Origin: Microcaldota archaeon
GTDB lineage: Archaea > Micrarchaeota > Micrarchaeia > Micrarchaeales > Micrarchaeaceae
Reading direction: 5' to 3'
Assembly: GCA_014874295.1 (NCBI GenBank)
Contig: JACWAL010000035.1
Span: 1-39,424 of the forward strand
DNA length: 39,424 bases
The notes below the pieces were generated by a model. The model saw nothing but the letters and a program-made list of their open reading frames with translations, did no database searches and was not told the DNA's origin. A program made the position numbers and the translations under genes. Positions 1 through 39,424 of the stretch are shown here, piece by piece (position 1 is the first letter of the stretch; each line of letters opens with the position of its first letter).

Positions 1-128
1 GAGGAATTGAGCTGTACGGTTGCGCCTGGGAACGCTATCGAGCCAGTCTGCATGTACGGCACGTTTGTTGGGACTCCGTTGTTGCCGTTGCCTGAGTAGT
101 CGTTGGCGTTGCCGTTGAGGGGCCACCA
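1..128. repeat. Copy A of exact 128-bp repeat (second copy 1800-1927)
   Basis: Base-by-base comparison of 1-128 and 1800-1927: identical; divergence begins at 129/1928. The copy may extend beyond the left edge. Confidence 0.97.
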
Positions 129-908
129 TCCCGCAAGGCTGGAATTCTGTATGGCGTTGCCTATCGGTCCCTTCGAGTAGAGCAGCGCCACGCTGGCGGA
201 GGGCAGCGCTGTATTGTAGAGCTGTACATTGGAAAGGTAGCCGTACACGCTGCCGTCGCTGTCAGCGGATCCTCCCATCGCGAGCGAGTTGCTGGTGACA
301 GGTATGGAACCAGTCTTGGTAGCAGAGCAGTATAACTGCCCGTTCACGTACTCGTTTATCACAGAGCCGTTGTACGTGAACCCTACGAAGCCCCACGTTG
401 TGTTCGGCATAGAGTACGGATATGATGAGCACGTACTCGAGCTGCTGCCTATGTACCCATTGAACTGGCCCGCACCACCGCCAATGCCTATGTTCATCCC
501 ATACGAGCCTTGTTTTTGCGCGATGGCCGTGCTGCCAGATGGCCGCACCCATGCAAACATACTCATCTGGGAAATCGGGGAGAGCGTGACAGAGTTCGAA
601 ACCGTGATGTATGTGCTGGAAGACGAGAAGACAGCCACGTTCGCGGTCATAGACGGCAACAGCGAAGGGGCGTTGGCTGCGATGACTGCGATGGCCTGTG
701 GCAGCGCCGACTGCAGGTAGCTCTGCAGAGCGCCGTTCAGTTCCGAGGCGAGATTGATAGATGACAGGCTTATCGCGCTCTGCGATGCGATCTGCGAGTA
801 GTCGATGTTTATCAGCTCATAGGTGGTCAGCTCTCCGACCAGCAGTATCAGCATGATTATGCTTATGAGCGTAAGCAAAAGCCCCTTTCTGCTCCTCGTG
901 GCTGTCAT
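1..908 (-). CDS. LamG-domain (concanavalin A-like) pilin-like/surface protein, 3' end beyond left edge
   Basis: Read by hand on the minus strand (not in ORF track because the stop is off-window): ATGA overlap with upstream gene at 905-908 (alternative ATG at 914); N-terminal TM 'RSRKGLLLTLISIIMLILLVGELTTYELINIDYSQIA'; LamG body '...MFAWVRPSG...NGYIGSSSSTC...YGYLSNVQLYNTALPSASVALLYSKG...SLAGWWPLNGNANDYSGNGNNGVPTNVPYMQTGSIAFPGATVQLNSS'. Confidence 0.8.
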   Translation of the reverse strand, partial: MTATRSRKGLLLTLISIIMLILLVGELTTYELINIDYSQIASQSAISLSSINLASELNGALQSYLQSALPQAIAVIAANAPSLLPSMTANVAVFSSSSTYITVSNSVTLSPISQMSMFAWVRPSGSTAIAQKQGSYGMNIGIGGGAGQFNGYIGSSSSTCSSYPYSMPNTTWGFVGFTYNGSVINEYVNGQLYCSATKTGSIPVTSNSLAMGGSADSDGSVYGYLSNVQLYNTALPSASVALLYSKGPIGNAIQNSSLAGWWPLNGNANDYSGNGNNGVPTNVPYMQTGSIAFPGATVQLNS

Positions 909-2656
909 CTCCATACACCTATGCTGACGTTGCTTATCGAAGCGGAGATGGAATTGCTAGTTAGCACCGGGACTGTGGCCATGGTTACGCTATAAGCCGA
1001 GCTGAACGCGTCGGGCAGATAGTTCCCGTTCGAGAATGCGACGTTCTGCGCGCTGCCTGACCTGTAGTTGCCCGAGTAATCGTATGTGTCACCGAGGAGG
1101 GGCCACCAACCTACGACATTGGCGCTGGCTATTGGCACACCCTGCGCGCCCTCCCTGTACAGCTGCGCAGCTTGCGCCGAGGACAATGCGCCATCGTACA
1201 GCTGCACATTGACCAGCGACCCGTTGAGGTAGAGGGAGCCCCAGCACGGAGAGGAACCACCACCTAGCAGGACCGCATTGTTGAGTGCAGGCACAGGGAC
1301 GGACACGCTCCTGTTGTAGATGCGCGCGCCATTCACATAAATCGTCTGGTTGGAGGTTGTTGGGCCTGTCGAGTTCCACACGAAGACGATGTTGTTCCAT
1401 GCGCCCGTCTTGAATATCGGATTGAGGTTCACGTCACCCGGGTTAGTGCCTCCCGAATACGAGACAAGCGTCTCGGAGTTGACGCCCCTTGAAGCTATGT
1501 AGAACCCGTTGGTGTTGCAGGATCCCGAGTCGGAGATTAACATGTTGTAATAATAGGTGTTCTGCAGGGGCCATGCCGTTGCCATGAACCACAGGCTTGC
1601 TGACACATGGCTGCTGCTCGATGGCACAGAACTCGTAGCCACGGTGCTGCTCTGCCCGTTGAACTGCGATGTGTGGAGCGAAGGCGCATAGTATCCGTTC
1701 AGGAACACGCCCGTGCTGTTCGGGACCGCAGATGACGCCACCATGTCGGCGTACGCAGCCTGGCCGCTTGAGTATAGCCGGGCGAGCATGCCGAGCGCAG
1801 AGGAATTGAGCTGTACGGTTGCGCCTGGGAACGCTATCGAGCCAGTCTGCATGTACGGCACGTTTGTTGGGACTCCGTTGTTGCCGTTGCCTGAGTAGTC
1901 GTTGGCGTTGCCGTTGAGGGGCCACCAGCCGGCTAGGCTCGCTCCCTTGAGCGGCATACCGCCCATCCCCTCGTTGTAGAGGTAGGATATCTGGTTAGAC
2001 GTCAGGGATGCACTGTAAATCTGGACGTTGGAGATTGATCCGTAGAAGTACGGATTACTGCCGGCCACGTACCCGATGTACAGCGGCGACGACGTTGATG
2101 TTGGAGTCCCGCTGGCGGAAGTGCAAACCCCATTCACGCATAGAGATGTGCCTGACGAGGTGTACGTGGCAGAGATGAAATACCGGTTGTTGAGCGATGG
2201 CACAGGCTCGCATGCGGATGGTTGATACGTACAAAATTGCAAGCCTCCGGACCCGCCAAAGGCTACCCCCCAGTTATTCGTGCTGTAAGCCCCGATCATC
2301 ATTGGGTATGTGATACTTGACGAAGGATTGGCCGTCGGGTATATCCAAGCAGTGACTGTGAGCGGGTACGACATGCTTAATGCGGTAGAGATATAACTGC
2401 TGTGACCGTTGAACTGCGCGACTGAGGTGCCGCCAGCAGTTATGAACGGGCTCGAGTACTGCGAGGGTATGGCTGCCAGCGCCTGGCTGGCTTTCATGCT
2501 GAGCAACCCTTCCATGACCCTGTGCGCCATCGATGACGGCGCCTGTACTATCGTCTGCGGCTGCGCCGACAGGTAGAGGAGGATTGAGACAGCTATGCCC
2601 GCTATGACGAGCGAGAATATCGCGTCGGTCGTGAATATGAATCCCTTTATCCTCAT
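905..2656 (-). CDS. Pilin-like protein with N-terminal TM and two LamG domains
   Basis: 583 aa; N-term 'MRIKGFIFTTDAIFSLVIAGIAVSILLYLSA'; two LamG modules, each ending NVQxY...LYxEG...GWWPL. Confidence 0.82.
   Translation of the reverse strand: MRIKGFIFTTDAIFSLVIAGIAVSILLYLSAQPQTIVQAPSSMAHRVMEGLLSMKASQALAAIPSQYSSPFITAGGTSVAQFNGHSSYISTALSMSYPLTVTAWIYPTANPSSSITYPMMIGAYSTNNWGVAFGGSGGLQFCTYQPSACEPVPSLNNRYFISATYTSSGTSLCVNGVCTSASGTPTSTSSPLYIGYVAGSNPYFYGSISNVQIYSASLTSNQISYLYNEGMGGMPLKGASLAGWWPLNGNANDYSGNGNNGVPTNVPYMQTGSIAFPGATVQLNSSALGMLARLYSSGQAAYADMVASSAVPNSTGVFLNGYYAPSLHTSQFNGQSSTVATSSVPSSSSHVSASLWFMATAWPLQNTYYYNMLISDSGSCNTNGFYIASRGVNSETLVSYSGGTNPGDVNLNPIFKTGAWNNIVFVWNSTGPTTSNQTIYVNGARIYNRSVSVPVPALNNAVLLGGGSSPCWGSLYLNGSLVNVQLYDGALSSAQAAQLYREGAQGVPIASANVVGWWPLLGDTYDYSGNYRSGSAQNVAFSNGNYLPDAFSSAYSVTMATVPVLTSNSISASISNVSIGVWR
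1800..1927. repeat. Copy B of exact 128-bp repeat
   Basis: Same offset (1799) throughout; encodes GWWPLNGNANDYSGNGNNGVPTNVPYMQTGSIAFPGATVQLNSS on the minus strand in both copies. Confidence 0.97.
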
Positions 2657-3195
2657 GTCCCCTCACCATAACTGGTGTTCGTCCAGATGATTACCTTCAT
2701 GAGCACTGGGCTGCCGTCCAGGTAGCCACTGGCGCTCGAACTGTAGACAGTCACCGCACCATACTGGCTCGGGTTCCTGCCTATGCCTATGTTGACGTTG
2801 TTGTTGCGCAGCTGTATATAGTAGTTGTACGACACGCCCAGCAGCTGCTTGGTAGTCTGGTAATTCGAGTTGGCTATGGACCACAGGGCCGCGAGCTTGC
2901 CCTGCGATATCTGCGTGCCGTTGCCGGTGCCGAGACCTATCGAGATCAGACCCCATGTCAGGCTATTGCTGGAGTTGACCGTGCTTTCCCAGTTGAGCGG
3001 CCACCCCGTGTAGAAGAGCGACCTGCTCAGGGTCTCGGACTGCAGCTGCATCATCTCCGCATTGTTCGAGTAGCTCAGCGACAGCTGTCCCTCTATGCTC
3101 GACCACTCGAACGCGAGCAACGTCATCGCCACAGTGAATATGACTATCGCGAGAACGATGTCGAAGCTCCAGAACTGAAGTTTGAGCGTCCTCAT
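2653..3195 (-). CDS. Pilin-like/pseudopilin protein with N-terminal hydrophobic helix
   Basis: 180 aa 'MRTLKLQFWSFDIVLAIVIFTVAMTLLAFEWSSIEGQ...'; overlaps the downstream gene start (ATGA type), cotranscribed. Confidence 0.7.
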   Translation of the reverse strand: MRTLKLQFWSFDIVLAIVIFTVAMTLLAFEWSSIEGQLSLSYSNNAEMMQLQSETLSRSLFYTGWPLNWESTVNSSNSLTWGLISIGLGTGNGTQISQGKLAALWSIANSNYQTTKQLLGVSYNYYIQLRNNNVNIGIGRNPSQYGAVTVYSSSASGYLDGSPVLMKVIIWTNTSYGEGT

Positions 3196-3199
3196 GCAA

Positions 3200-5362
3200 T
3201 CACGGCAGCCTCAGCAGCTTGTATAAGGGGAGCCCGAAGTTGTAGAGCTCCTGCGCCTGCTGCCGGCTAAGCGATGTGTTATATACCTCGACCTCTGACA
3301 CGTATGCCGATCCCACTTTCCCTGCTTGCGGGTTGTCATTGACGCCGAGCATCAGGTTCGTGGCATAGGAGGACAGCGTCCCTGCCGACGCAGTGAACGT
3401 GCATGACGCCACCTCCTGGCCGTTCAGGTATATCGTTATTCCGGTATAGCCGTTGACGCTCACCAGCGCATCGTACCATGCGCCAGGCATTATCGCGCCG
3501 GAGGACGTGTTGCACTTCTGCGCGCTGACTGGCGAGTATTCCATCCAGGTGAAGTTTGATTTCGGACCGCCCGCCCAGCTGCCTGCGAAGTCGAAGTTCT
3601 GCCCGCCACCTATGCCGGAATTGATTATGCCGTTGTATATGTCGACGATAGGATACTGCACGACTGAGTTTGGCACCATGAACCACTGATTGACTGAGAA
3701 GTTCACGCCGGCAAGCGTTGACGGGCTGACACCGAGCCTCGAGTAGCTTATCTTCGACGCGTAGGAGCCATACCCTCCGGTCATGTTCGGAGTGGAAATG
3801 GTGCTGTTCGACGATATCATCATGGAATTGAATGAAACGGAGACAGCATTGCCGTTGTTCGCGTTAACAGAATAGTCGTTGGCGTTGCCGTTGAGGGGCC
3901 ACCAAGCAGTTAGCGGCACAGAAGGCAGTGGCATGGCGGCGATGCCCTGGGCGTACAAGCTGCTTACCTGAGCCTGCGAGAGCGACGCATTATAGATCTG
4001 CACGTTCGCGATGATGCCATTGAAGAAGTAGTAGCTTCCATTGTAATCCCCTATGTACCCTGTCGTCCTTGCGGTCTGGGCGAACCCGCCAAGGGCCGTG
4101 TTGGCGGTTAGTGTGCCATTGATGTATATAGTCCCAATGCCGCTAGTTGTGTTGAATTGCGCTACTATGAAGTTCCACTGGTTGTACTTCACGGCTGATG
4201 ACCCTGTTTGTACGCTCGTGTAGGTGGACCCTGTAGAATACTGTTCTTGAACTGAGCCGGTGGTCATGATGTAGACCCAGGAGAAGCCAGCGGTGCTGCT
4301 CTGTGGGTTCGAGTTATATATTGTCTCTATGTAACCACTGGTTTTTGGATATACCCATGCGGCGACGGATATGGAACCCTTCGGTAGGGCCGACGGGTTT
4401 TGGATGGCGATTCCGCTGCTTTGCCCGTTGAACTGTCCTGTTAAGATATTTGTCACGTTCTTCTGCATCGGCGACCACTTTATGCTGGACACGGTGCCGG
4501 AGTTCGTTGCGATGATGCCGTTGTTGCCGTTGCCGCTGAGATCTGGCAGCGTGTTGCTGGTCATGCCTCTAACCCCGGAGAACATCGGCAGCCAAAGGAC
4601 CAGGCTACCGCTGGCCGAGAGGTTGGCCCCCAGCGCATAGACCGAAGCGTTGAGTATCTGATATGCACTGTTTGTCGTTATCGATACAATCGCGTTGCCA
4701 TTCGAGGCCGTGATGCCGGGGGCCGTGGACATGACAGCATTCGCGCTTCCGCCCTGTATTGCCACTACGCCAACCTTCCCCCCGATGAACGGACCTCCTG
4801 TCATAGATGCGGCATGGATGTTGAGGTTTATCTGGTTGCCGTATGTGTAGTTGACGGCCACGCTGCCGAGCATGCCTGAGGAGCTAGGCGGTTGCGCGTT
4901 CACGTAGACCGTGCCGAGGTAATTATAGACATGCAGCATGCCGGACACGCTGAGCAGCCTGTAAAGTGTCACCTGCCCGGAAGAGAAGACTGCTGTGCCG
5001 TTGATGACCAGGTTCCTCGCAAAGCTTGAAGACTGTGCGCCGAGCACCTGCGACCCTATCGAGAGGTTGGCCACCACAGTACCTGCAGACGAAAGGTAAA
5101 GCGCATATGGCGTGGAGGAGATGCTGGCCGGCAGCGACACGGTTGCTGCATACCCGTTTCCCGAGGCGAGCGCGATGTCTATCTGGCTGGCCACATCCCT
5201 CGTCAATATCTGGAGGAAAGAGCCCTGCTGCGTCGCAAGCGAAGTGGCGCGCTGGTTTGCCACGAGCGCGAATACCACGACGAATATGATGAGCACGATT
5301 GAATATACTACTATGAACTCCAGCGCAATCTGGGCCCTCCTATCCTGGCGCATCCGCATCAT
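3200..5362 (-). CDS. LamG-domain pilin with class III signal peptide
   Basis: Start placed at MMRMRQDRRAQIALEFIVVYSIVLIIFVVVF (ATG 5362) rather than the track's 5497; RRAQIALEF matches the archaeal class III signal peptide; two LamG-like modules and 'TAWWPLNGNANDYSVNANNG'. Confidence 0.82.
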   Translation of the reverse strand: MMRMRQDRRAQIALEFIVVYSIVLIIFVVVFALVANQRATSLATQQGSFLQILTRDVASQIDIALASGNGYAATVSLPASISSTPYALYLSSAGTVVANLSIGSQVLGAQSSSFARNLVINGTAVFSSGQVTLYRLLSVSGMLHVYNYLGTVYVNAQPPSSSGMLGSVAVNYTYGNQINLNIHAASMTGGPFIGGKVGVVAIQGGSANAVMSTAPGITASNGNAIVSITTNSAYQILNASVYALGANLSASGSLVLWLPMFSGVRGMTSNTLPDLSGNGNNGIIATNSGTVSSIKWSPMQKNVTNILTGQFNGQSSGIAIQNPSALPKGSISVAAWVYPKTSGYIETIYNSNPQSSTAGFSWVYIMTTGSVQEQYSTGSTYTSVQTGSSAVKYNQWNFIVAQFNTTSGIGTIYINGTLTANTALGGFAQTARTTGYIGDYNGSYYFFNGIIANVQIYNASLSQAQVSSLYAQGIAAMPLPSVPLTAWWPLNGNANDYSVNANNGNAVSVSFNSMMISSNSTISTPNMTGGYGSYASKISYSRLGVSPSTLAGVNFSVNQWFMVPNSVVQYPIVDIYNGIINSGIGGGQNFDFAGSWAGGPKSNFTWMEYSPVSAQKCNTSSGAIMPGAWYDALVSVNGYTGITIYLNGQEVASCTFTASAGTLSSYATNLMLGVNDNPQAGKVGSAYVSEVEVYNTSLSRQQAQELYNFGLPLYKLLRLP
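3873..3904. repeat. Third copy of the 32-bp core (tagtcgttggcgttgccgttgaggggccacca)
   Basis: Exact match to 97-128 and 1896-1927, same right boundary; encodes WWPLNGNANDY. Confidence 0.93.
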
Positions 5363-5463
5363 CCCGTATTCTCTCAAAACCTTAATAAATCTGCAGACCG
5401 CGTGCGATACTGCGCGCAACTGTTCTCCTGAACAAATAATAACCTGAACGGTGATAAGGCAAC

Positions 5464-7584
5464 ATGGATGTCGCCGAGGCGAGGGGCAGGATCCCATATG
5501 AGGTAAGCGAGTCGCTTGCAGCCAGGGGCATCATGACATTCACCGAGCCCCAGGCCCTCGCGCTCGGGAAAGGGCTGATGGACGGCAGGAGCATCGTGGT
5601 GGCCTCGCCGACCGCCAGCGGCAAGACGCTCGTCGCTGAGATGGCATGCGCCAATTCCATAATAGCAAAGAGGAGGAAGGCGCTTTACATAGCGCCGATG
5701 AGGGCCCTTGTCAGCGAGAAGTACAGCGAGTTCATGGCCGCCTACCCGTACATCAAGACGGCGATGTCCGTCGGGGACCTGGACTCGGACGACCAGTGGC
5801 TCAGCAAGTACGAGATGATATTCGTCTCGACCGAGAAGCTCGACAGCCTGATGAGGCACGGCGTCGAGTGGCTCGGCGATGTGGGTTGCATCGTCTTCGA
5901 CGAAATACACATGCTTGGAGACCCATCCAGGGGGCCAACGCTGGAGCTGCTCATAACGAAACTGAGGAGCATGAGCGGCGCGCAGGTGATAGCGCTGAGC
6001 GCCACGATCGGCAATGCGGATGAGATCGCAAAGTGGATAGACGCCGAGCTCGTGCAGAGCAACTACAGGCCCGTCAAGCTGAGGAAGGGTATAGTCTATG
6101 ACAGCAAGGTGCACTATGCGAGCGGGAAGGTGGGCAAGGAGAAATGGGACGTGGAGGCGCTCGATGCTAGGAGCGGGGTTCCCGAGACGCAGGTTGTGGA
6201 GGACACGCTCAACAGGAAGAAGCAGCTCATCATATTCTATTCTTCGAGGAGGAACGCAGAGGCCGGCGCAACGAGGATAGCGCCGCACGTCAGGACGATG
6301 TTGGCCGCCTCGGAGCGCGAGGGCCTGGAGAGGCTCAGCGACAGGGTGCTGCACGTACTAGACAGCCCGACGCAGCAGTGCACCAGGCTATCAGAGCTCA
6401 TAAAGGATGGTGTCGCGTTCCACCACGCTGGCCTTATGAACGCCCAGCGTTCCATGATCGAGGATGCGTGCAGGGGCAACCTCATCAAGGCCATCTGTTC
6501 GACGACAACGCTTGGGCTCGGGATAAATATGCCCGCGCACACCGTGCTTGTCAGGGACATACACAGGTATGACGGGACAGGGAGCACGTCAATCGGAACG
6601 AACGAGGTAATGCAACTCTTTGGCAGGGCTGGTAGGCCGAAGTATGACACCGAGGGCAGGGCGCTGCTCGTCGCCTCCTCGAAGGAGGGCATGGAGCTGC
6701 TCTCCAAGAGGTACATGAAGGCAAAGCCCGAGCCCGTAGATTCGGGCATAGGCATCGCGCCAGTGCTCAGAACTCACATATTGGCATTCATAGCAGAGGA
6801 CTTTCTTAACACGAAGGAAGCGATCGACGCCTTCCTCGCCAAGACGTTCTACGGCTTCCAGTACCGAAACATGACAGACATAAAGTACAAGGTCAGCTCG
6901 ATACTTAGGGAGCTGCTCGAATGGGAATTTATCTCGCAGGAGGGCAATGCCTTCTTCGCAACGCGATTGGGCAAAAGGGTGAGCGAGCTCTATATAGACC
7001 CGCTCTCCGCGAGGCAGATGGCGGCGTCGCTCTCAAGGGAGCGCGACGCAATCGGTAACCTCTTCATGCTCTGCAACACGCTCGAGATGAGGCCGTACGT
7101 CAAGGCGGGCGAGGAAGCGCTCGCGGGCTATGCCATGATGTCCAGGGTGAGCGGCATGCCCTTGGACTACGACGCGGAGATGTATGTGGCATACGAGCCC
7201 GAGAGAGCTTATGCGACGGCGCTAATGCTGCGCGACTGGATGGACGAGAAGAAGGAGAGTGCGATCGTGGAGAAGTACTCCACGACACCAGGATTCATCT
7301 ACAACAAGCTCAACAACGCCGGATGGCTGGCTTATTCTGCTATCGAGATGGCGAAGATCCTGCATGTAAGCACGCATGACCTCGTGAACATGAACGCGCG
7401 ACTCAAGTACGGCATAATGGAGGAGCTGCTCGACCTCGTGCGCCTGCGCGGCATAGGAAGGGCGAGGGCGAGGATGTTGTTCTCAAACGGCATAGAGACC
7501 GTAAGGGATATAAAGGAGAACAAGGATAAGGTAACGCGTGTGCTCGGAAAGGAGGTCGCGCAGATGGTCTTCGACCAGCTCTGA
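5464..7584 (+). CDS. hel308: Ski2-family DNA helicase Hel308
   Basis: 706 aa; PTASGKT, DEIHMLGD, SATIGN, FYSSRRNAE, GLGINMPAHTVLVRD, QLFGRAGRPKYD motifs and C-terminal HhH-like region. Confidence 0.9.
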   Translation: MDVAEARGRIPYEVSESLAARGIMTFTEPQALALGKGLMDGRSIVVASPTASGKTLVAEMACANSIIAKRRKALYIAPMRALVSEKYSEFMAAYPYIKTAMSVGDLDSDDQWLSKYEMIFVSTEKLDSLMRHGVEWLGDVGCIVFDEIHMLGDPSRGPTLELLITKLRSMSGAQVIALSATIGNADEIAKWIDAELVQSNYRPVKLRKGIVYDSKVHYASGKVGKEKWDVEALDARSGVPETQVVEDTLNRKKQLIIFYSSRRNAEAGATRIAPHVRTMLAASEREGLERLSDRVLHVLDSPTQQCTRLSELIKDGVAFHHAGLMNAQRSMIEDACRGNLIKAICSTTTLGLGINMPAHTVLVRDIHRYDGTGSTSIGTNEVMQLFGRAGRPKYDTEGRALLVASSKEGMELLSKRYMKAKPEPVDSGIGIAPVLRTHILAFIAEDFLNTKEAIDAFLAKTFYGFQYRNMTDIKYKVSSILRELLEWEFISQEGNAFFATRLGKRVSELYIDPLSARQMAASLSRERDAIGNLFMLCNTLEMRPYVKAGEEALAGYAMMSRVSGMPLDYDAEMYVAYEPERAYATALMLRDWMDEKKESAIVEKYSTTPGFIYNKLNNAGWLAYSAIEMAKILHVSTHDLVNMNARLKYGIMEELLDLVRLRGIGRARARMLFSNGIETVRDIKENKDKVTRVLGKEVAQMVFDQL

Positions 7585-11157: not shown

Positions 11158-12360
11158 TCACGCCAATACTACATGCTTGCCCTCTATGAGCTCGCGTGCG
11201 AAGTTCGGCAGGTTGCCGAGCATTTCTTCTGCGATGCCGTGCGCCTTGCCCATCACCGCGCCGAACCTCTTCCTGTCCTCAAGCACCAGCTCGAGATTCA
11301 CGTGCTTCGGGTCGCTGATCGGCCTGCCTATCTGCGAGACCATGTAGACCGTGCACTCTTTTACTTCTGGATACTGCATCACGACCTCGCTTGCTATCTC
11401 GTTCGACACGACGCTATATATCTTACCGACGTGGTTGATCGGGTTCTTGCCCCACGCGGCCTCGAGCGTCATAGGCCTGAACGGCGTTATTATCCCGTTG
11501 ACGCGGTTACCCCTCCCGACCGACCCGTCGTCCCCGGCCTCGCAGCTGAGACCGGACTTTGTCAGGTAGACATCGTTGTCGCTGTGCGAGTCCCCGTTGT
11601 TTATCGCCACGGACACGTTGCGCTTCGTGTATTTCTTGGAAAGCTTGAGCACGTCCTCCATAATCCTCTCCTTGTATGAGACGTAATCGTCCATGCTCTT
11701 GACGAACTTGGCGACAAAGGCGATTGCGATTGTCAGGGTTATGCTGTTCTCCTCGCGGATGCTCATTACCTTCACGTCCTCCCCCACCATGGGCATCGAC
11801 TTCTTGTAAGCCATGCTGTTCAGGTAGCGCTCGGTCTCTATGGCCAGCTTTTCGGTCTCGGTGAAAGGCGCGAACCCTATCCCGAACGACGTGTCGTTTG
11901 CTAGCGGTGCTCCTGCTGCCCTCTTGAAGACGCCGTTTAGGTCGGCAGATCCCTTCTGTATCCTCGTGGCGAATTTTACCTCACTCTCTATGCCAAGGAA
12001 GCGCGTGTTCTCCCTCAGGTAGTCTTTTGCAGCCTGCATCGCGATCTCGTCCACTGGTATGGCGATGTTTCCAAGCGACTTCGTCGCCCTGCCCGCGACT
12101 ATGACTTCAATAGGCCTCGTTATCTTGCCAGAACCGAACGTGGCTGTTGACTCCCCTCCTACTATCAGCCCCTTGTCGACGTTGTGGTGCAGTATCTGCT
12201 CGGTCTTCTCGAGATATGCCTTGCTCAGCTCGACGCTCGCTCTCTCCACTATTCCGTCTATCAGCGTGTCAGGGTGCCCCTTTCCCTTCCTCTCCACGTA
12301 CTCGACAGCCTGCTCCTCGAGCGGAGCGTTGCCTAGGTATGAGACTTTTATGTTGCTCAT
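11158..12360 (-). CDS. mat: Archaeal S-adenosylmethionine synthetase
   Basis: 400 aa; 'VEYVERKGKGHPDTLIDGIVERASVELSKAYLEKTEQILHHNVDKGLIVGGESTATFGSGKITRPIEVIVAGRAT...NNGDSHSDNDVYLTKSGLSCEAGDDGSVGRGNRVNGIITPFRPMTLEA'. Confidence 0.93.
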   Translation of the reverse strand: MSNIKVSYLGNAPLEEQAVEYVERKGKGHPDTLIDGIVERASVELSKAYLEKTEQILHHNVDKGLIVGGESTATFGSGKITRPIEVIVAGRATKSLGNIAIPVDEIAMQAAKDYLRENTRFLGIESEVKFATRIQKGSADLNGVFKRAAGAPLANDTSFGIGFAPFTETEKLAIETERYLNSMAYKKSMPMVGEDVKVMSIREENSITLTIAIAFVAKFVKSMDDYVSYKERIMEDVLKLSKKYTKRNVSVAINNGDSHSDNDVYLTKSGLSCEAGDDGSVGRGNRVNGIITPFRPMTLEAAWGKNPINHVGKIYSVVSNEIASEVVMQYPEVKECTVYMVSQIGRPISDPKHVNLELVLEDRKRFGAVMGKAHGIAEEMLGNLPNFARELIEGKHVVLA

Positions 12361-32177: not shown

Positions 32178-32250
32178 GGCCTCACCCGGGAGTCGAACCC
32201 GGTCTGGGAGATCCACAGTCTCCTATGCAAGCCGTTACACCAGTGAGGCC
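32178..32250 (-). tRNA. tRNA-His(GTG)
   Basis: GGCCTCAC...GTGAGGCC eight-pair end consistent with encoded G-1:C73; anticodon arm GGAGA-CTGTGGA-TCTCC; T-arm CCGGG-TTCGACT-CCCGG; no encoded CCA; followed by TTTT. Confidence 0.92.
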
Positions 32251-32299
32251 ATCACAATGCAATGATATGGCACAAGGAGACTTTTAGCTCTTTTGCTGG

Positions 32300-32605
32300 C
32301 TATGTCGATGAATCGCCGATGATCGCGTGGACTGCACTGCCCTTCAGATACGCTATCAGGGTTCGGTCTTGCAGGTACGTGGAGAAACCGTCCATCTGCA
32401 GCGCCTGCGAGAGCGCGGACATGTAGCTCGCATTGTAACCCGCATTGCGCGCGTAGATGGACGCGAGCATCAACCCCTGCGATGTGGAATATGCGGAATA
32501 CGGGAGCGCGAACGACTGGTAAAGCGCAACACCTGAGAGGATAGAGGGGGCTGTCAGCGAGGATGCCATTATGGAAGCGACGACCAACAGTCCTAACGAC
32601 GCCAT
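32300..32605 (-). CDS. Small pilus-operon protein with N-terminal TM
   Basis: 101 aa; last gene of the pilus operon; abuts upstream ORF. Confidence 0.6.
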   Translation of the reverse strand: MASLGLLVVASIMASSLTAPSILSGVALYQSFALPYSAYSTSQGLMLASIYARNAGYNASYMSALSQALQMDGFSTYLQDRTLIAYLKGSAVHAIIGDSST

Positions 32606-32986
32606 TCAACCACACAGAGTCATGCACGACATGTTGACTTCCGCTCTGTATTTTAATGGCAGGCAGAATGTCTTGGAGGATGTGCAAGCCGCTGCTGCGC
32701 CATACGAGAAGGTTCTGCCACGGTAAGACAGCGATGCATAGCTTGTGTGGTAAAAGGTGTTGAACTCCTGCAGCATAGATGTCATGCATGTGTCATTCAG
32801 TGCTATGAGGCATGAACTGTATGTATGGTCGTATAGCAGCGCACTGAAGATGTCGTAGATCTCATTGTCGCTCGACAGCATGACTCCGTAGGGGTGCGCG
32901 GCAGCGGAGAAAGCATATGAGAGCGCGGAGGAAGCTATGGCGACTACTGCAATCGATAATGCGGCTTCTACGATGATGGTCGGCAT
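32606..32986 (-). CDS. Small pilin-like, Cys-containing secreted protein
   Basis: 126 aa; N-term 'MPTIIVEAALSIAVVAIASSALSYAFS'; five Cys outside the TM. Confidence 0.6.
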   Translation of the reverse strand: MPTIIVEAALSIAVVAIASSALSYAFSAAAHPYGVMLSSDNEIYDIFSALLYDHTYSSCLIALNDTCMTSMLQEFNTFYHTSYASLSYRGRTFSYGAAAACTSSKTFCLPLKYRAEVNMSCMTLCG

Positions 32987-32990
32987 GTGT

Positions 32991-34280
32991 TCACCTGACG
33001 CTTATCTTGGATCCATCGACATATACTGTCTCATTCGCGTTGAGGCTGTCGTTCAGGCGTTCGAGTATGTCGCCGTAAACAAACTCCTGCAATGGAGGGC
33101 ACGACAGCATGCCCCTCCCTGTAAGGTAGATGCATTGCGACGTTGATTGCGCCGGAAGGGTCGAGTTGACGTAGGAATCGTATGCGCTGATGGCCTGCTG
33201 TATCGCAGACATCTGTGAATTGTCCACACCAGTGTTGTTGTAATAGGCTAGCATGCTCTCCACGTTGTTCAGGTACTGTTGGAACGTAGTGTAATAGCTC
33301 ATGTTGACCAGGCGCGCCGCATTCGAGCGAAGCACTGCAATGCTCTGCGCTGGATCGGGCCCATATGCGATGATGTTGCCATCGACTACGGCGTTGCCCG
33401 CTATGGCATTGCCAAGGTAGACGTACGAAGATGGTGCATGCGATGACAGGTTAGCGGTCAACATGGTCCCACCAACGTTCGTGACCAGCGATATGTTGTA
33501 GTACGGACTATATGAATAGTTGACCTTCTGCATGATCTTGCCGTTACCGGGGCCGTAGAAGCAGTAGGTCCTAGTAGTGCCGTACGCGCCGAAACAATAG
33601 TCATCGAATATGCGCACTTCCCACTTCGCGTCGCCGCACTGCATCTGTATGGGCCATAGCTGGTCCCAGAAGTTCATCATGGTGCAGCTCGACGATTGCG
33701 TTATGGCCCCCATGCTGACCGGACTTGACAACCCGTACAGCAGTGATTCGTTGCGGCGCGCTATATAAGCGCTGACCTGGCCGGACTGGTTGCGGACATA
33801 CTGCGATGCGCTGCCATTGACCGTGACGGTCATGCCATATGCATGCAGCGCTACTGTATTACTGCCGTTCACCGCAACTACGGCCACACTCACATTATGC
33901 TGGCCTACTGCAGTGAGCAGTATTGGTATGCTCAATATCGATGGGTTTCCCTGCCCTACATAGCTGTACTGTATGGCTCCTATTCCAGCCTCGCCCGCGG
34001 TGACATTGGATATCGCGAAGCCTGCAGGGAGGTATACGATTGCGTATGCACGGGCAGGCTGCATCAGATATGTAGTGGAAGGCACGTAGACTGAAAGCTG
34101 TGACGCAGTGTCGGTCGTTGCCATCATATTTGAGTAGTCCAAACCTGAAACGTTCCTGAGCGATGAATAGACCGGCGCCTCGCGCGATGCGAGGCCCGCA
34201 TAGAGGGATAAGATGGTGACAGCGAACGCTGAGACTGCCGCAAGCAGTATTATGAACTCCGTGCTGCTCTGACCCTTCAT
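32991..34280 (-). CDS. Large class III signal-peptide pilin
   Basis: 429 aa; 'MKGQSSTEFIILLAAVSAFAVTILSLYAGLA' class III signal peptide. Confidence 0.78.
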   Translation of the reverse strand: MKGQSSTEFIILLAAVSAFAVTILSLYAGLASREAPVYSSLRNVSGLDYSNMMATTDTASQLSVYVPSTTYLMQPARAYAIVYLPAGFAISNVTAGEAGIGAIQYSYVGQGNPSILSIPILLTAVGQHNVSVAVVAVNGSNTVALHAYGMTVTVNGSASQYVRNQSGQVSAYIARRNESLLYGLSSPVSMGAITQSSSCTMMNFWDQLWPIQMQCGDAKWEVRIFDDYCFGAYGTTRTYCFYGPGNGKIMQKVNYSYSPYYNISLVTNVGGTMLTANLSSHAPSSYVYLGNAIAGNAVVDGNIIAYGPDPAQSIAVLRSNAARLVNMSYYTTFQQYLNNVESMLAYYNNTGVDNSQMSAIQQAISAYDSYVNSTLPAQSTSQCIYLTGRGMLSCPPLQEFVYGDILERLNDSLNANETVYVDGSKISVR

Positions 34281-34564
34281 CCATTCACCGATACGGAGCG
34301 GAGCGCACCGCCGGAATCGACCAGCCTCACACCCGGCTTTGACACTGGATTCTGCACGTATGCGCCATGCAACACGGTGCCTGTCATCTGTGCGATGTAA
34401 AGCGCGGCCTGGATCGAGGAATTAGATGCTAGCGCACCGCCTGCTGAGGAGATTGCGCCATACAGCGATGAGCGCTCGGAAATGTATTGCGCTGCCATTA
34501 TGATGAGTGCGGACGAGACCAGCAGCAATGCGATGAGCAGGTCTACGCCTATTATGCACCGCAT
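34277..34564 (-). CDS. Minor pilin-like protein
   Basis: 95 aa; 'MRCIIGVDLLIALLLVSSALIIMAAQYISE'; 4-bp ATGA overlap with downstream gene. Confidence 0.65.
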   Translation of the reverse strand: MRCIIGVDLLIALLLVSSALIIMAAQYISERSSLYGAISSAGGALASNSSIQAALYIAQMTGTVLHGAYVQNPVSKPGVRLVDSGGALRSVSVNG

Positions 34565-34568
34565 TGGG

Positions 34569-34751
34569 TCACCTCAGCAGCGCCTCAAGACTGTTCACCG
34601 ACGCGTTCGCGCTGGCAAACGCACTTCCTTGTAGTGTCTCTATAGTAGGCGGCGCGCGCGCCAGCCCTGCATAGAGCCACGATGAGGCCAGGAGCAGCGA
34701 CAGCGATGACAGCAGATAGACCAGCAACATAAGTGAGATTTGCGCCTTCAT
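34569..34751 (-). CDS. Minor pilin-like protein
   Basis: 60 aa from ATG 34751: MKAQISLMLLVYLLSSLSLLLASSWLYAGLARAPPTIETLQGSAFASANASVNSLEALLR. Confidence 0.6.
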   Translation of the reverse strand: MKAQISLMLLVYLLSSLSLLLASSWLYAGLARAPPTIETLQGSAFASANASVNSLEALLR

Positions 34752-34755
34752 GCGT

Positions 34756-35118
34756 TCACCCAACCAGGTAACCTCCTGCGGACCTTTGCACAGTAATCCG
34801 CACAGTGCTGCCTTCCTCACTGCATAGCAGGCTACTGAACGAGACGTTTCCGTACAGCGGGAATGTCCCGTATCTGGTTGCTATACCATAACCCGATAGC
34901 GTGGAGTTGCATAGCCCATACGGCACCTTGGCTGTGAAACTGTACGAGGAATAACCCATCGCATAGTCTATCGCGGCCACGAAATCGCGGAACTGCGCGG
35001 CGCCCTCGCCATTCGTCATTGCCGAGTAGTACGGCAGGAAGAGCGAGAGCGAGAGCGCCAATGACGCTGCCGACACGGCGATGTAGGTCAGGAACTCCAC
35101 AGTCATCTGCGGCCTCAT
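34756..35118 (-). CDS. Minor pilin with class III-like signal
   Basis: 120 aa; 'MRPQMTVEFLTYIAVSAASLALSLSLFLPYYSA'. Confidence 0.72.
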   Translation of the reverse strand: MRPQMTVEFLTYIAVSAASLALSLSLFLPYYSAMTNGEGAAQFRDFVAAIDYAMGYSSYSFTAKVPYGLCNSTLSGYGIATRYGTFPLYGNVSFSSLLCSEEGSTVRITVQRSAGGYLVG

Positions 35119-35119
35119 C

Positions 35120-35329
35120 TCACTTCACCATTGCGCTGAGGTTCCCAAGCTGCGAGCCGAGCTTCTGCGCCATCGTATTGCTGCCGTTGAAGAACTGGCT
35201 TGTCGCCGTCCCCTTCAACTGTACCATCATGGTCAGGGCTATCACGATTATGATGCTGACGGCAGACAGCATCATTATGTACTCTATCGAGCTCTGCACT
35301 TTCCTTGTCCTGCTTTTCTTGTCTCTCAT
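35120..35329 (-). CDS. Small pilin with class III signal peptide
   Basis: 69 aa from ATG 35329: MRDKKSRTRKVQSSIEYIMMLSAVSIIIVIALTMMVQLKG...; QSSIEY motif. The track ORF starting at 35752 is over-extended. Confidence 0.78.
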   Translation of the reverse strand: MRDKKSRTRKVQSSIEYIMMLSAVSIIIVIALTMMVQLKGTATSQFFNGSNTMAQKLGSQLGNLSAMVK

Positions 35330-35343
35330 CGAATCACCTAGCG

Positions 35344-36093
35344 TCACATCATCAGCGAGCCTGCGGCCGCGACGATATTGAGCATGACCATGCCAGAGGA
35401 AGCCATCGCGATGGCGCCCGGAACCCTGTCCCCCTTCTGGAAGAACGCCGATATGACCGCGACCAGCGCGATGTACGCGGCAACGACCACAATGAACGGC
35501 AGCGTGGCAGCGGTGGTTGCCTGCGTGGGCAGCCCGATGTCCATTATGTTCCTGCACACACCAGCAAACGCGGGAAAGAAGGCGCAGTTCCCGGCCTGTA
35601 TGAGCGAGAGGGTGTTGCTGATGCCGCCGATGTGTCGCATCTTTAGCTCGCTCGCGTACCTCTGCCTTGATAGCAGCGATTTCAGCTGCGCGTCGATATT
35701 CGCCCCGTTGAGCACGGCGTCCCTTGCGAGGTGCATTGTAGAGAGCAGGCACGTCGGGTCATCGGCCAGCGGCAGCGGGACGTCTGACGCATCTCCCAGC
35801 GCCCAGCGCTTCACGGTGTCGACTACAGCCTGTTCGAACTTCAATCCCTTCGCAGCATCCATCGCTCTCTTGGAGAACGGAATGACCTCGCTGCTGGACA
35901 GCCTGGAGAGGAACTCCAATGAATCCCTCTCTTGCCTCGAGGATGCGAGTGCGCGCCCCCTTCTTGCCGAGACATAAAGGTATGAGGCGGGCAGAAGGAT
36001 CGGCAGCGATAGGTACGGCTGCACGAACGACACAACTAGTGCGGCGGCAAACATTGGGACAGACGCGGCTATTCTCTTATCCATATACCTCAC
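35344..36093 (-). CDS. TadC-like type II/IV pilus membrane platform protein (T2SF-type half)
   Basis: 249 aa; hydrophobic N- and C-terminal pairs flanking a helical T2SF-like core 'DSLEFLSRLSSSEVIPFSKRAMDAAKGLKFEQAV...RQRYASELKMRHIGGISNTLSLIQAG'; located after the ATPase. Confidence 0.65.
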   Translation of the reverse strand: MRYMDKRIAASVPMFAAALVVSFVQPYLSLPILLPASYLYVSARRGRALASSRQERDSLEFLSRLSSSEVIPFSKRAMDAAKGLKFEQAVVDTVKRWALGDASDVPLPLADDPTCLLSTMHLARDAVLNGANIDAQLKSLLSRQRYASELKMRHIGGISNTLSLIQAGNCAFFPAFAGVCRNIMDIGLPTQATTAATLPFIVVVAAYIALVAVISAFFQKGDRVPGAIAMASSGMVMLNIVAAAGSLMM

Positions 36094-36601
36094 TCATCTT
36101 CCTGCGCAGCAGCGCGTATACCAGCGGGAACACCATTATCAGTGCCATCGAGAATGCCGCGAACGACGCGGCAGAGCTGTAGAGCATCGAGTATCCCACG
36201 AAGCCGAAGAGCGCTAGGGACGGCAGTATCACGCTGGAGAGCAACGACAGCGTCATATACTTCTGCACCGACCCGAACCCAATCTCGAGCCGCAACCTGC
36301 CGGAATGCTCCACCTCATCAGAAAGCCTCAGCATCGCAGCCCTCGCGTCATCACAGCCGGATACCGCTTCCATGAGGCGGATCCTTAGCCCGCGGTCACG
36401 CAGTTTGGCGGCTGACATGGAAGTACGGAACGCGTCAGCTACGGGCACGCCCAGCTTCACGTTCGCGTAGGCTGTTGATACTGCATAGCGCAATGTGCTC
36501 CGCGATTCCGTCAAGGCAGCACTGCGAATTGCTTCCATCGATGTCGGGGCGCTGAGCGCGCACTCGCGCATCTTCTCTGCAAACACTTCGTCATCATCCA
36601 T
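36077..36601 (-). CDS. TadB/C-like pilus membrane platform protein (second T2SF-type half)
   Basis: 174 aa; helical N-terminal region followed by TMs; overlaps the next platform gene. Confidence 0.62.
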   Translation of the reverse strand: MDDDEVFAEKMRECALSAPTSMEAIRSAALTESRSTLRYAVSTAYANVKLGVPVADAFRTSMSAAKLRDRGLRIRLMEAVSGCDDARAAMLRLSDEVEHSGRLRLEIGFGSVQKYMTLSLLSSVILPSLALFGFVGYSMLYSSAASFAAFSMALIMVFPLVYALLRRKMSEVYG

Positions 36602-38047
36602 TCAAGCACCGTAGCTTCGTATGTATTCCGTTACACTTGCATTGCTGTCTATCGATGCGAGGAACCTGGAGCGCCTCCTCAGCTCGGCCGCGGCCTTCTG
36701 CACCGTGATGAGATGCAAATCTGCGAACCTCTCCACGACCTTCAGCGTGGTCGCACTCGAGCGCAGGTTACTAAAATTGACCTGGGACATCGCGCACCCG
36801 ATGTCGCCCGTCCCCTCGGCAGGTATAGCATCCCTGGTTGCCCATCTATATTCCCACGCACTGGACAGGCTGCGCGACGCTCCGTCCTTACGCATGAACA
36901 GCGCCACGTCGAGCGCGCTTACGTTGCTCCTCTCGACCTCCATCGGCTTGGATGTGAGCCTGTCGAGCAGGCTGCGCGCGTCGCAGTTGCTGTGCATGGT
37001 GGCCATAAAGGGTATGCCCAGGTTGCCTGCCGCGAAGACGTCCCTCGCCTCCGGACCGCGGAGTTCTCCAAGTATTATTCTGTCTGGCCTTATGTGCAGC
37101 GCGTTCACCACCTGGTCGCGCAGCTCTGCTTTCGATCCGGCGCGGCCCTGCAGACCCACAAAGTTCGAGAGATCATGGTCCAGCCTGAGCTCGCTCACGT
37201 CCTCCTCCACCACGACGACGCGCTCGTGTCGGGGCAAAAACGAGAGCAGGGACATGAGCAGCGATGTCTTGCCTGAAGCGGGGGCTCCAGACACCATGAT
37301 GTTAAGCCCTGCATCGAGCGCCATCCACATGTAGGCCAGGGCATCGCTGGTCAGCGTTCCCGTAGAGAGCAGCTTCCTCATGTCAATCTTGTTCGAGCTG
37401 TTCAGCCTTATCGACACCGCCGCCCCTCCTGGGGCGTACGGCCTGAGCTGGGCGTGTACCCTCGACCCGTCCGCAAGCTGGGCATCTATTATTGGAGTAT
37501 CGGAGTTCAGCTCCCTCTCCGCGTCGGCGATGAGCCTGTTGAGCGCGGAGCGCATCGCCTGCTCGCTCCTGAAGGAGAGGTTAGTGCGGCAGAACCCCAG
37601 CCTCGAGTGATACACACATATGCGCGACGTCGGGCTGTTCACCACTATCTCCTCCATGTTCTCCTTGTCGTCCATCAGCATCGAGAATGGCCCGAACCCC
37701 GCTGTGTCGTGCGCGGCCATGTACGAGATCAGCTCCCTGTCCTGTACATCTTGCGGCAGCGAGGAAAGCGCCAAGGCGTACGCGTCCTTCACAGAGGCGC
37801 TGCTCCCAGGGGCGAGGTTGGAGACCACGGCGCGCTTGGCAGCCGCCATCATGGCCTCGTCTGAACTGGTCAGCACCCTGCCAACCGAATAGACGTTGCC
37901 GTCCTTCCCGCTACCGGCGGTAAAGAACCTCCCGCTGAACTCGGCGGCCGACGGCGCATCGCCCGAAACGCTGAACGACGCGGGCAGGCCTTCCCGAAAC
38001 GCCCTCGTGAACACCCTTCCAAACATCCTGCATCCAACCCGAGGCAC
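36602..38047 (-). CDS. Type II/IV secretion ATPase (TadA/ArlI/PilB-like)
   Basis: 481 aa; 'MEEIVVNSPTSRICVYHSRLGFCRTNL', Walker A 'GAPASGKTS', 'VVVEEDVSELRL', 'IILGELRGPEARDVFAAGNLGIPFMATMHSN'. Confidence 0.88.
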   Translation of the reverse strand: MPRVGCRMFGRVFTRAFREGLPASFSVSGDAPSAAEFSGRFFTAGSGKDGNVYSVGRVLTSSDEAMMAAAKRAVVSNLAPGSSASVKDAYALALSSLPQDVQDRELISYMAAHDTAGFGPFSMLMDDKENMEEIVVNSPTSRICVYHSRLGFCRTNLSFRSEQAMRSALNRLIADAERELNSDTPIIDAQLADGSRVHAQLRPYAPGGAAVSIRLNSSNKIDMRKLLSTGTLTSDALAYMWMALDAGLNIMVSGAPASGKTSLLMSLLSFLPRHERVVVVEEDVSELRLDHDLSNFVGLQGRAGSKAELRDQVVNALHIRPDRIILGELRGPEARDVFAAGNLGIPFMATMHSNCDARSLLDRLTSKPMEVERSNVSALDVALFMRKDGASRSLSSAWEYRWATRDAIPAEGTGDIGCAMSQVNFSNLRSSATTLKVVERFADLHLITVQKAAAELRRRSRFLASIDSNASVTEYIRSYGA

Positions 38048-38591: not shown

Positions 38592-39424
38592 ATGCATCAC
38601 AAAGCTGATGATTGGGAAGGGGTGGCACCGCGCAGCGGGCGTATGGCTCAGTCCGCGATGGAGTACTTAATGACGTATGGATGGGCAATCCTGATTATCG
38701 CGGTCGTACTTGGCGCACTCTATTCCCTCGGAGTCTTCAACATGTCGGCGTACATGCCGAAGATAGGACCGGGAGCCTGCCACGTCTTCAGGCCTAACGG
38801 TCCCGGAACCTCGTGGAACGTCGCACTGACAGGCAGCTGTGCTGGTTACCTGCCACAGTACGTCGCGCAGTTCAACGGGCAAGGCACCACTTACGTGCAG
38901 GTTCCAGCTACATCAATCTCCACAAACCTCAATACGTCCAATGCTTTTTCTGTCTTCGCGTGGGTTTATATGACAGGATTTCCTGTAGTACAGGGCAGCA
39001 CCGGTTATCCCACCGTCTTGGGGGGCAGAGGCGACCAGTTAGGAATATATGAAGCATCTCCAACAGCCTTCAATGTGCGGCCTTGCCTTGCGGGTTGCTT
39101 ACTTAGCTCAAGCACGGCACCGCTAAACACATGGGTCATGATAGGATACTCTTATAGCGCTTCTTTAGGGAGCGTCGTGATCTACATAAACGGAAGAGTG
39201 GATAGTACCCCGTCTGTATCGGGAGGCATTCCGATAAACAGCACGTATTGCATAGGCAATACCAATACGGGCGCCGTTTGCGCGAACGTGTGGCCATTCC
39301 AGGGCTCCATCGCCAACGTCCAGATCTACAACGCTTCATTAACGGCAGACCAGGTTCAGTACCTCTACAAGGAGGGCATAGGCGGTGCACCGATCTACCT
39401 GCAGCGCCTTGTTGGGTGGTGGCC
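38592..39424 (+). CDS. LamG-domain pilin with class III signal peptide, 3' end beyond right edge
   Basis: Not in ORF track (no stop in window). ATG 38592, internal ATG 38643: MAQSAMEYLMTYGWAILIIAVVLGALYSLGVF... then LamG '...FSVFAWVYMTG...QGSIANVQIYNASLTADQVQYLYKEGIGGAPIYLQRLVGWW'. Confidence 0.85.
   Translation, partial: MHHKADDWEGVAPRSGRMAQSAMEYLMTYGWAILIIAVVLGALYSLGVFNMSAYMPKIGPGACHVFRPNGPGTSWNVALTGSCAGYLPQYVAQFNGQGTTYVQVPATSISTNLNTSNAFSVFAWVYMTGFPVVQGSTGYPTVLGGRGDQLGIYEASPTAFNVRPCLAGCLLSSSTAPLNTWVMIGYSYSASLGSVVIYINGRVDSTPSVSGGIPINSTYCIGNTNTGAVCANVWPFQGSIANVQIYNASLTADQVQYLYKEGIGGAPIYLQRLVGWW

Follow-up and report, generated by a model that had tools for sequence, protein, structure and literature searches.

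An exact 128-bp repeat in adjacent LamG genes of a Micrarchaeota genome: a probable contig-end chimera around a shared 53-bp tract

INTRODUCTION

Does an exact repeat between two neighboring surface-protein genes record a recent exchange between them, or the way in which the contig was assembled? This question is raised by a DNA stretch of 39,424 bp from a member of the Micrarchaeota, a tiny symbiotic archaeon, in which the first 128 bp recur in the gene next door. The window analyzed here is this entire stretch and equals the complete contig C33 from a metagenome-assembled genome (MAG; G000, 823,640 bp in 42 contigs, all of which were compared with one another); base 1 is, therefore, a contig end. 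A sequence-only reading of the window had attributed the repeat to "gene conversion or assembly repeat." For comparison, we used two congeneric genomes, G001 (JAJYLX010000006.1, a SPAdes contig) and G002 (a k141 contig). Based on the contigs and these relatives, we consider it very likely that bases 1 to 75 are a chimeric tail and that the remainder is a real 53-bp tract, which probably arose by a short gene conversion.

RESULTS

Genes A and B are adjacent LamG genes beside a type IV pilus operon

The features of the locus are listed in Table 1. Gene B runs from position 914 down off the left end of C33 and on to position 12660 of contig C37, on which pilus genes encode a T2SSE ATPase and two T2SSF proteins. 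Genes A and B both encode LamG surface proteins and lie next to each other, flanked by a type IV pilus (TadA/TadC-like) operon. PF13385 matched above the curated cut-off in genes A and B, in the gene at 3200, and in the LamG pilin gene at 38592. The gene at 3200 also holds an 84 to 89% identical copy of the 53-bp motif described below (positions 3852 to 3904), while the pilin gene at 38592 runs on into contig C12 via an exact overlap of 128 bp. Adjoining the latter gene, positions 32235 to 38047 contain a second pilus-like cluster of membrane ORFs and small pilin-like ORFs, including an ATPase-like ORF (36602 to 38047) with a Walker-type motif recognized by eye.

Table 1. Features of the locus (positions in the window)
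Feature	Position	Strand	Basis
Probable chimeric tail: gene A linker sequence (as at 1800-1874) fused to gene B	1..75	-	C37 and G001/G002
5' part of gene B, with N-terminal membrane segment and LamG domain (Laminin_G_3)	76..914	-	PF13385, E 1.2e-17
53-bp tract in gene B, coding for WWPLNGNANDYSGNGNNG	76..128	-	In both the C33 and C37 copies of gene B
Gene A, 583 aa: N-terminal membrane segment and two LamG domains	905..2656	-	PF13385, two stretches
Gene A linker VPTNVPYMQTGSIAFPGATVQLNS, authentic; recurs in contig tail	1800..1874	-	Homologous linker in gene A of G001/G002
Gene A copy of the exact 53-bp tract	1875..1927	-	Identical to 76-128
Small protein with N-terminal membrane segment, encoded upstream of gene A; synteny anchor	2653..3195	-	G001/G002 orthologues
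LamG pilin-like protein (ORF), two LamG stretches	3200..5497	-	Profile match
Helicase-like gene; anchors synteny on the C33 side	5464..7584	+	84% identical G001 orthologue adjoining the locus
LamG pilin, constant-variable-constant family, cut by the right contig end	38592..39424	+	Family comparison

The repeat is exact in the window and abuts a contig end

At the level of the letters, the comparison confirmed the earlier description: positions 1 to 128 match positions 1800 to 1927 at 128 of 128 bases, far above chance, and the two copies diverge at 129/1928. Both copies are on the minus strand and in frame, one in gene B and one in gene A.

To interpret this identity at the level of the genome, the assembly has to be considered. 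The longest exact repeat anywhere in the MAG is 141 bp, and overlaps of exactly 141 bp, the commonest end overlap, connect 15 pairs of contig ends. Together, this repeat-length ceiling and these end overlaps indicate de Bruijn assembly at k=141; a k of 127, with the repeat equal to k+1, was considered and dropped on the same evidence. The name of a congeneric record, DAIDAQ010000013, contains "k141." Exact copies (100 bp or longer) of contig-interior sequence are present at 15 of the 84 contig ends, among them the left end of C33, and 7 of these 15 ends fall in LamG genes. Because such end copies are common in this MAG, a copy of this type is by itself no evidence of a second locus. The first copy in C33 begins at base 1 and, thus, directly abuts the contig end.

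Gene B probably continues on contig C37

The 134 bp at the right end of C37 (12661 to 12794) are identical to C33:76-209 and comprise the 53 bp common with gene A followed by 81 bp found only in gene B. Past this overlap, C37 differs from C33:1-75. On C37, gene B can be read in frame to a stop at 11442, adding 450 aa for a total of 685 aa, while C33:1-75 instead repeats the gene A linker. A point against this continuation is that the overlap, at 134 bp, is shorter than k=141, so that C37 and C33 were left unjoined by the assembler.

The gene order that follows from joining the two contigs is confirmed by the relatives. In G001 as well as G002, the pilus genes of C37, gene B, gene A, and the genes at 2653 and 3200 lie unbroken on one contig, and in G001, the helicase-like gene joins this uninterrupted series. 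Gene A has full-length orthologues in both genomes, and the orthologues of the gene at 2653 occupy the same position (72% and 54% identical in G001 and G002, respectively). Across the junction, the C33+C37 protein is 70% identical to gene B of G001 (residues 7 to 405) and 50% identical to gene B of G002 (residues 1 to 416). Gene B of G001 reads ...NNGVATGVAYQTVLSNASSSRL..., resembling ...NNGAATGISYVRITSNATASRL... on C37. A linker ending in FPGA.VQ.NS is of the gene A type, and the tail C33:1-75 matches the gene A linker of the relatives. We also note that C37:11442-12660 encodes a Gly-rich C-terminal extension of gene B that is absent from the 412- to 416-aa orthologues in G001 and G002.

Because C37 continues gene B in frame and the relatives share the C37-type continuation, the most likely reading of bases 1 to 75 is that of a chimeric tail to the contig, in place of the sequence into which gene B truly continues. 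A different reading takes the entire 128 bp to be genuine: gene A sequence would have entered gene B by a recent gene conversion or duplication in the population sampled, and C37 would carry the allele of another strain or a third paralogue. The contig as assembled stays in frame through bases 1 to 128, and long exact exchanges between LamG pilin genes, e.g., of 746 and 611 nt, occur in related genomes, both as this reading would have it. However, C37 includes 81 bp found in gene B alone and supplies the rest of this gene, the C37-type continuation is found at the syntenic place in both relatives, and the copy stops exactly at the contig end, as at 14 other ends of the MAG. We consider this reading improbable, although a minority strain may carry a real 128-bp conversion.

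Short-read de Bruijn assemblies produce contig-end chimeras and ends broken at repeats. The copy in C33 resembles such chimeras in that it stops at a contig end, near the k limit, and in that the true continuation was found on a second contig; it differs in that the switch point holds a short real repeat of 53 bp. Starting from the chimeric tail as the preferred explanation, the assembly at k=141 would have failed to cross the 53-bp spot cleanly, and C33 would have been extended beyond it into 75 bp of gene A sequence and not into the continuation of gene B on C37. As a consequence of this reading, C37 and C33 become one locus with pilus motor genes beside LamG genes.

A 53-bp tract is shared by genes A and B

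Of the two genomic copies of 128 bp that had been proposed, 53 bp (76 to 128 versus 1875 to 1927) hold up and bases 1 to 75 do not; the 53-bp tract is the only part supported by contigs and relatives as truly shared by genes A and B. The two alternatives offered by the sequence-only reading can, thus, be assigned to different segments. For bases 1 to 75, the in-frame continuation on C37 and its agreement with two relatives point to assembly. For bases 76 to 128, recombination is plausible, as the synonymous identity exceeds expectation and is missing between the A and B orthologues of the relatives. The tract encodes the conserved motif that ends a LamG domain, and the A/B pair has 15 consecutive synonymous-identical codons (p about 5e-5; permutation within amino acids), a test applied to a tract that was picked because it was conspicuous. 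The tract is bounded, and its synonymous identity is above that of the rest of the A/B pair; in the sister species, which do not have the identity, the longest exact A/B matches are 17 bp (G001) and 12 bp (G002).

The main rival to gene conversion invokes no recombination and attributes the 53-bp identity solely to the LamG end motif being strongly constrained and subject to a common codon preference; it concerns the origin of the tract and leaves the artefact part untouched. In its favor, the motif is conserved family-wide, other copies being 76 to 89% identical over the same stretch, and a strong codon constraint could lengthen a synonymous-identical run. Against it are the 15 codons in a row as well as the A/B pairs of G001 and G002, which at the same motif do not exceed the 17-bp exact match. 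We regard constraint as a rather unlikely cause. Genes A and B are adjacent and related in their LamG domains, as would also be expected from a whole-gene tandem duplication followed by divergence everywhere but in the repeat. However, the corresponding positions in G001 and G002 are already occupied by A and B as separate genes, placing their duplication before the genus, and the identical tract is not shared by these species; this scenario is highly improbable, being refuted by the relatives unless the three loci had independent origins. The likeliest cause of the 53-bp tract is a short lineage-specific gene conversion, which is plausible and may have taken place directly between A and B or involved a different copy from the family.

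The contigs and relatives suggest that the exact 128-bp duplication arose mostly from assembly, around a core of 53 bp that is real. The 128-bp copy is, accordingly, poor evidence for recombination in LamG pilin genes. Removing this false example implies that long exact repeats at MAG contig ends need to be checked against partner contigs before gene conversion is inferred.

LamG pilin genes have mosaic flanks

The wider idea of the earlier reading, recombination among LamG pilins, is backed by mosaic flanks in several genomes, including the closed genome of Mia14 (G011; 952,257 bp). In G000, at least 12 LamG pilins consist of an N-terminal part (about 80 residues) that is nearly constant, a LamG center with mostly 10 to 40% identity, and a constant C-terminal part (about 60 residues); the flanks have a synonymous identity of about 0.5 to 0.7 and the center one of about 0.3. 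A similar contrast between flanks and center is present in G005 (three contigs) and G039 (one contig). The contrast was not seen in G011, the array of which contains recent near-identical copies, and this explains the difference.

Pair-specific runs were significant in 5 of 66 paralogue pairs in G000 after Bonferroni correction under a looser null, and in 2 of 66 when the null was made stricter by permuting within amino acid and flank. Given the latter number, discordant trees and relatives in which the genes lie on single contigs provide more of the basis for the mosaic claim than this test does. The tree of the N-terminal flank groups by genome with the fewest possible changes (four), while that of the LamG center needs 17 changes and includes a supported cross-genus group; many branches are weak in both. 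In Mia14, the first 746 nt of gene 592467 are identical to gene 593398 and its last 179 nt to gene 591533, and three LamG pilin genes are identical over 852 nt. In G005, two neighboring genes share 611 nt exactly, preceded by 186 nt at 56% identity. Based on the mosaic flanks, the discordant trees, and the exact exchanges in Mia14 and G005, sequence comparison makes recombination among the LamG pilin genes of this group well supported.

Beyond this, we tentatively raise the possibility that Micrarchaeota actively shuffle their repertoire of LamG pilins, with the constant N- and C-terminal flanks, homogenized per genome through gene conversion, serving as homology arms. Equally tentatively, the hypervariable lectin centers might be exchanged, putatively diversifying binding to host archaea, and the 53-bp tract might be a small trace of this process. 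If confirmed, the wider pattern would allow a test of whether obligate symbionts among the archaea use shared-flank recombination to diversify the pilins with which they bind their hosts.

Antigenic variation by pilE/pilS in Neisseria is a pilin gene-conversion system. The LamG pilins resemble it in having a constant N-terminal pilin part, a variable remainder, and exchange via shared homology. They differ in that many members look like complete genes: most have the N-terminal segment and stop within one open frame, and silent partial cassettes feeding a single expression locus were not found among them. A diversity-generating retroelement in G000 was considered and rejected since no reverse transcriptase matched PF00078, the one profile searched, which a divergent enzyme could escape.

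In "Ca. Mancarchaeum acidiphilum" Mia14, expansions of LamG (Laminin_G_3, PF13385), some linked to type IV pili, have been described (PMC5498576). Our family is similar in its expanded LamG genes, some of them tied to pilus loci; the difference is that the passages found of that account report expansion without mention of mosaic flanks or exact shared tracts. In the literature searched, we found no account of recombination among these LamG pilin genes. The complete Micrarchaeum A_DKE genome lacks the LamG pilin family and matched only at a generic pilin N-terminus.

Two further observations concern individual LamG pilin loci. In Mia14, positions 583637 to 589559 (L171) contain a tandem LamG pilin array with units spaced 1,974 bp apart and three copies identical over 852 nt. 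On contigs C11, C20, and C42 of G000, LamG pilin genes are split or shortened by stops, as pseudogenes, frameshifts, or assembly errors.

Other repeats in the MAG

A 151-bp MITE-like element has 20 matches at 98 to 100% identity in G000, all outside the window (C1:1927-2077, C32:7335-7483, C16:48-198, and the ends of about 15 contigs), and breaks the assembly in many places; it was absent from the four relatives searched. Its ends are imperfectly inverted (GTAAGAGTTTAA / TTAAACTGTTAC), and two of three interior copies have direct repeats of 8 bp. A second contig-end repeat occurs at the left ends of C2, C8, C13, and C37 and at the right ends of C7 and C32, and by eye, its C13 copy resembles the start of an IS200/IS605-type transposase.
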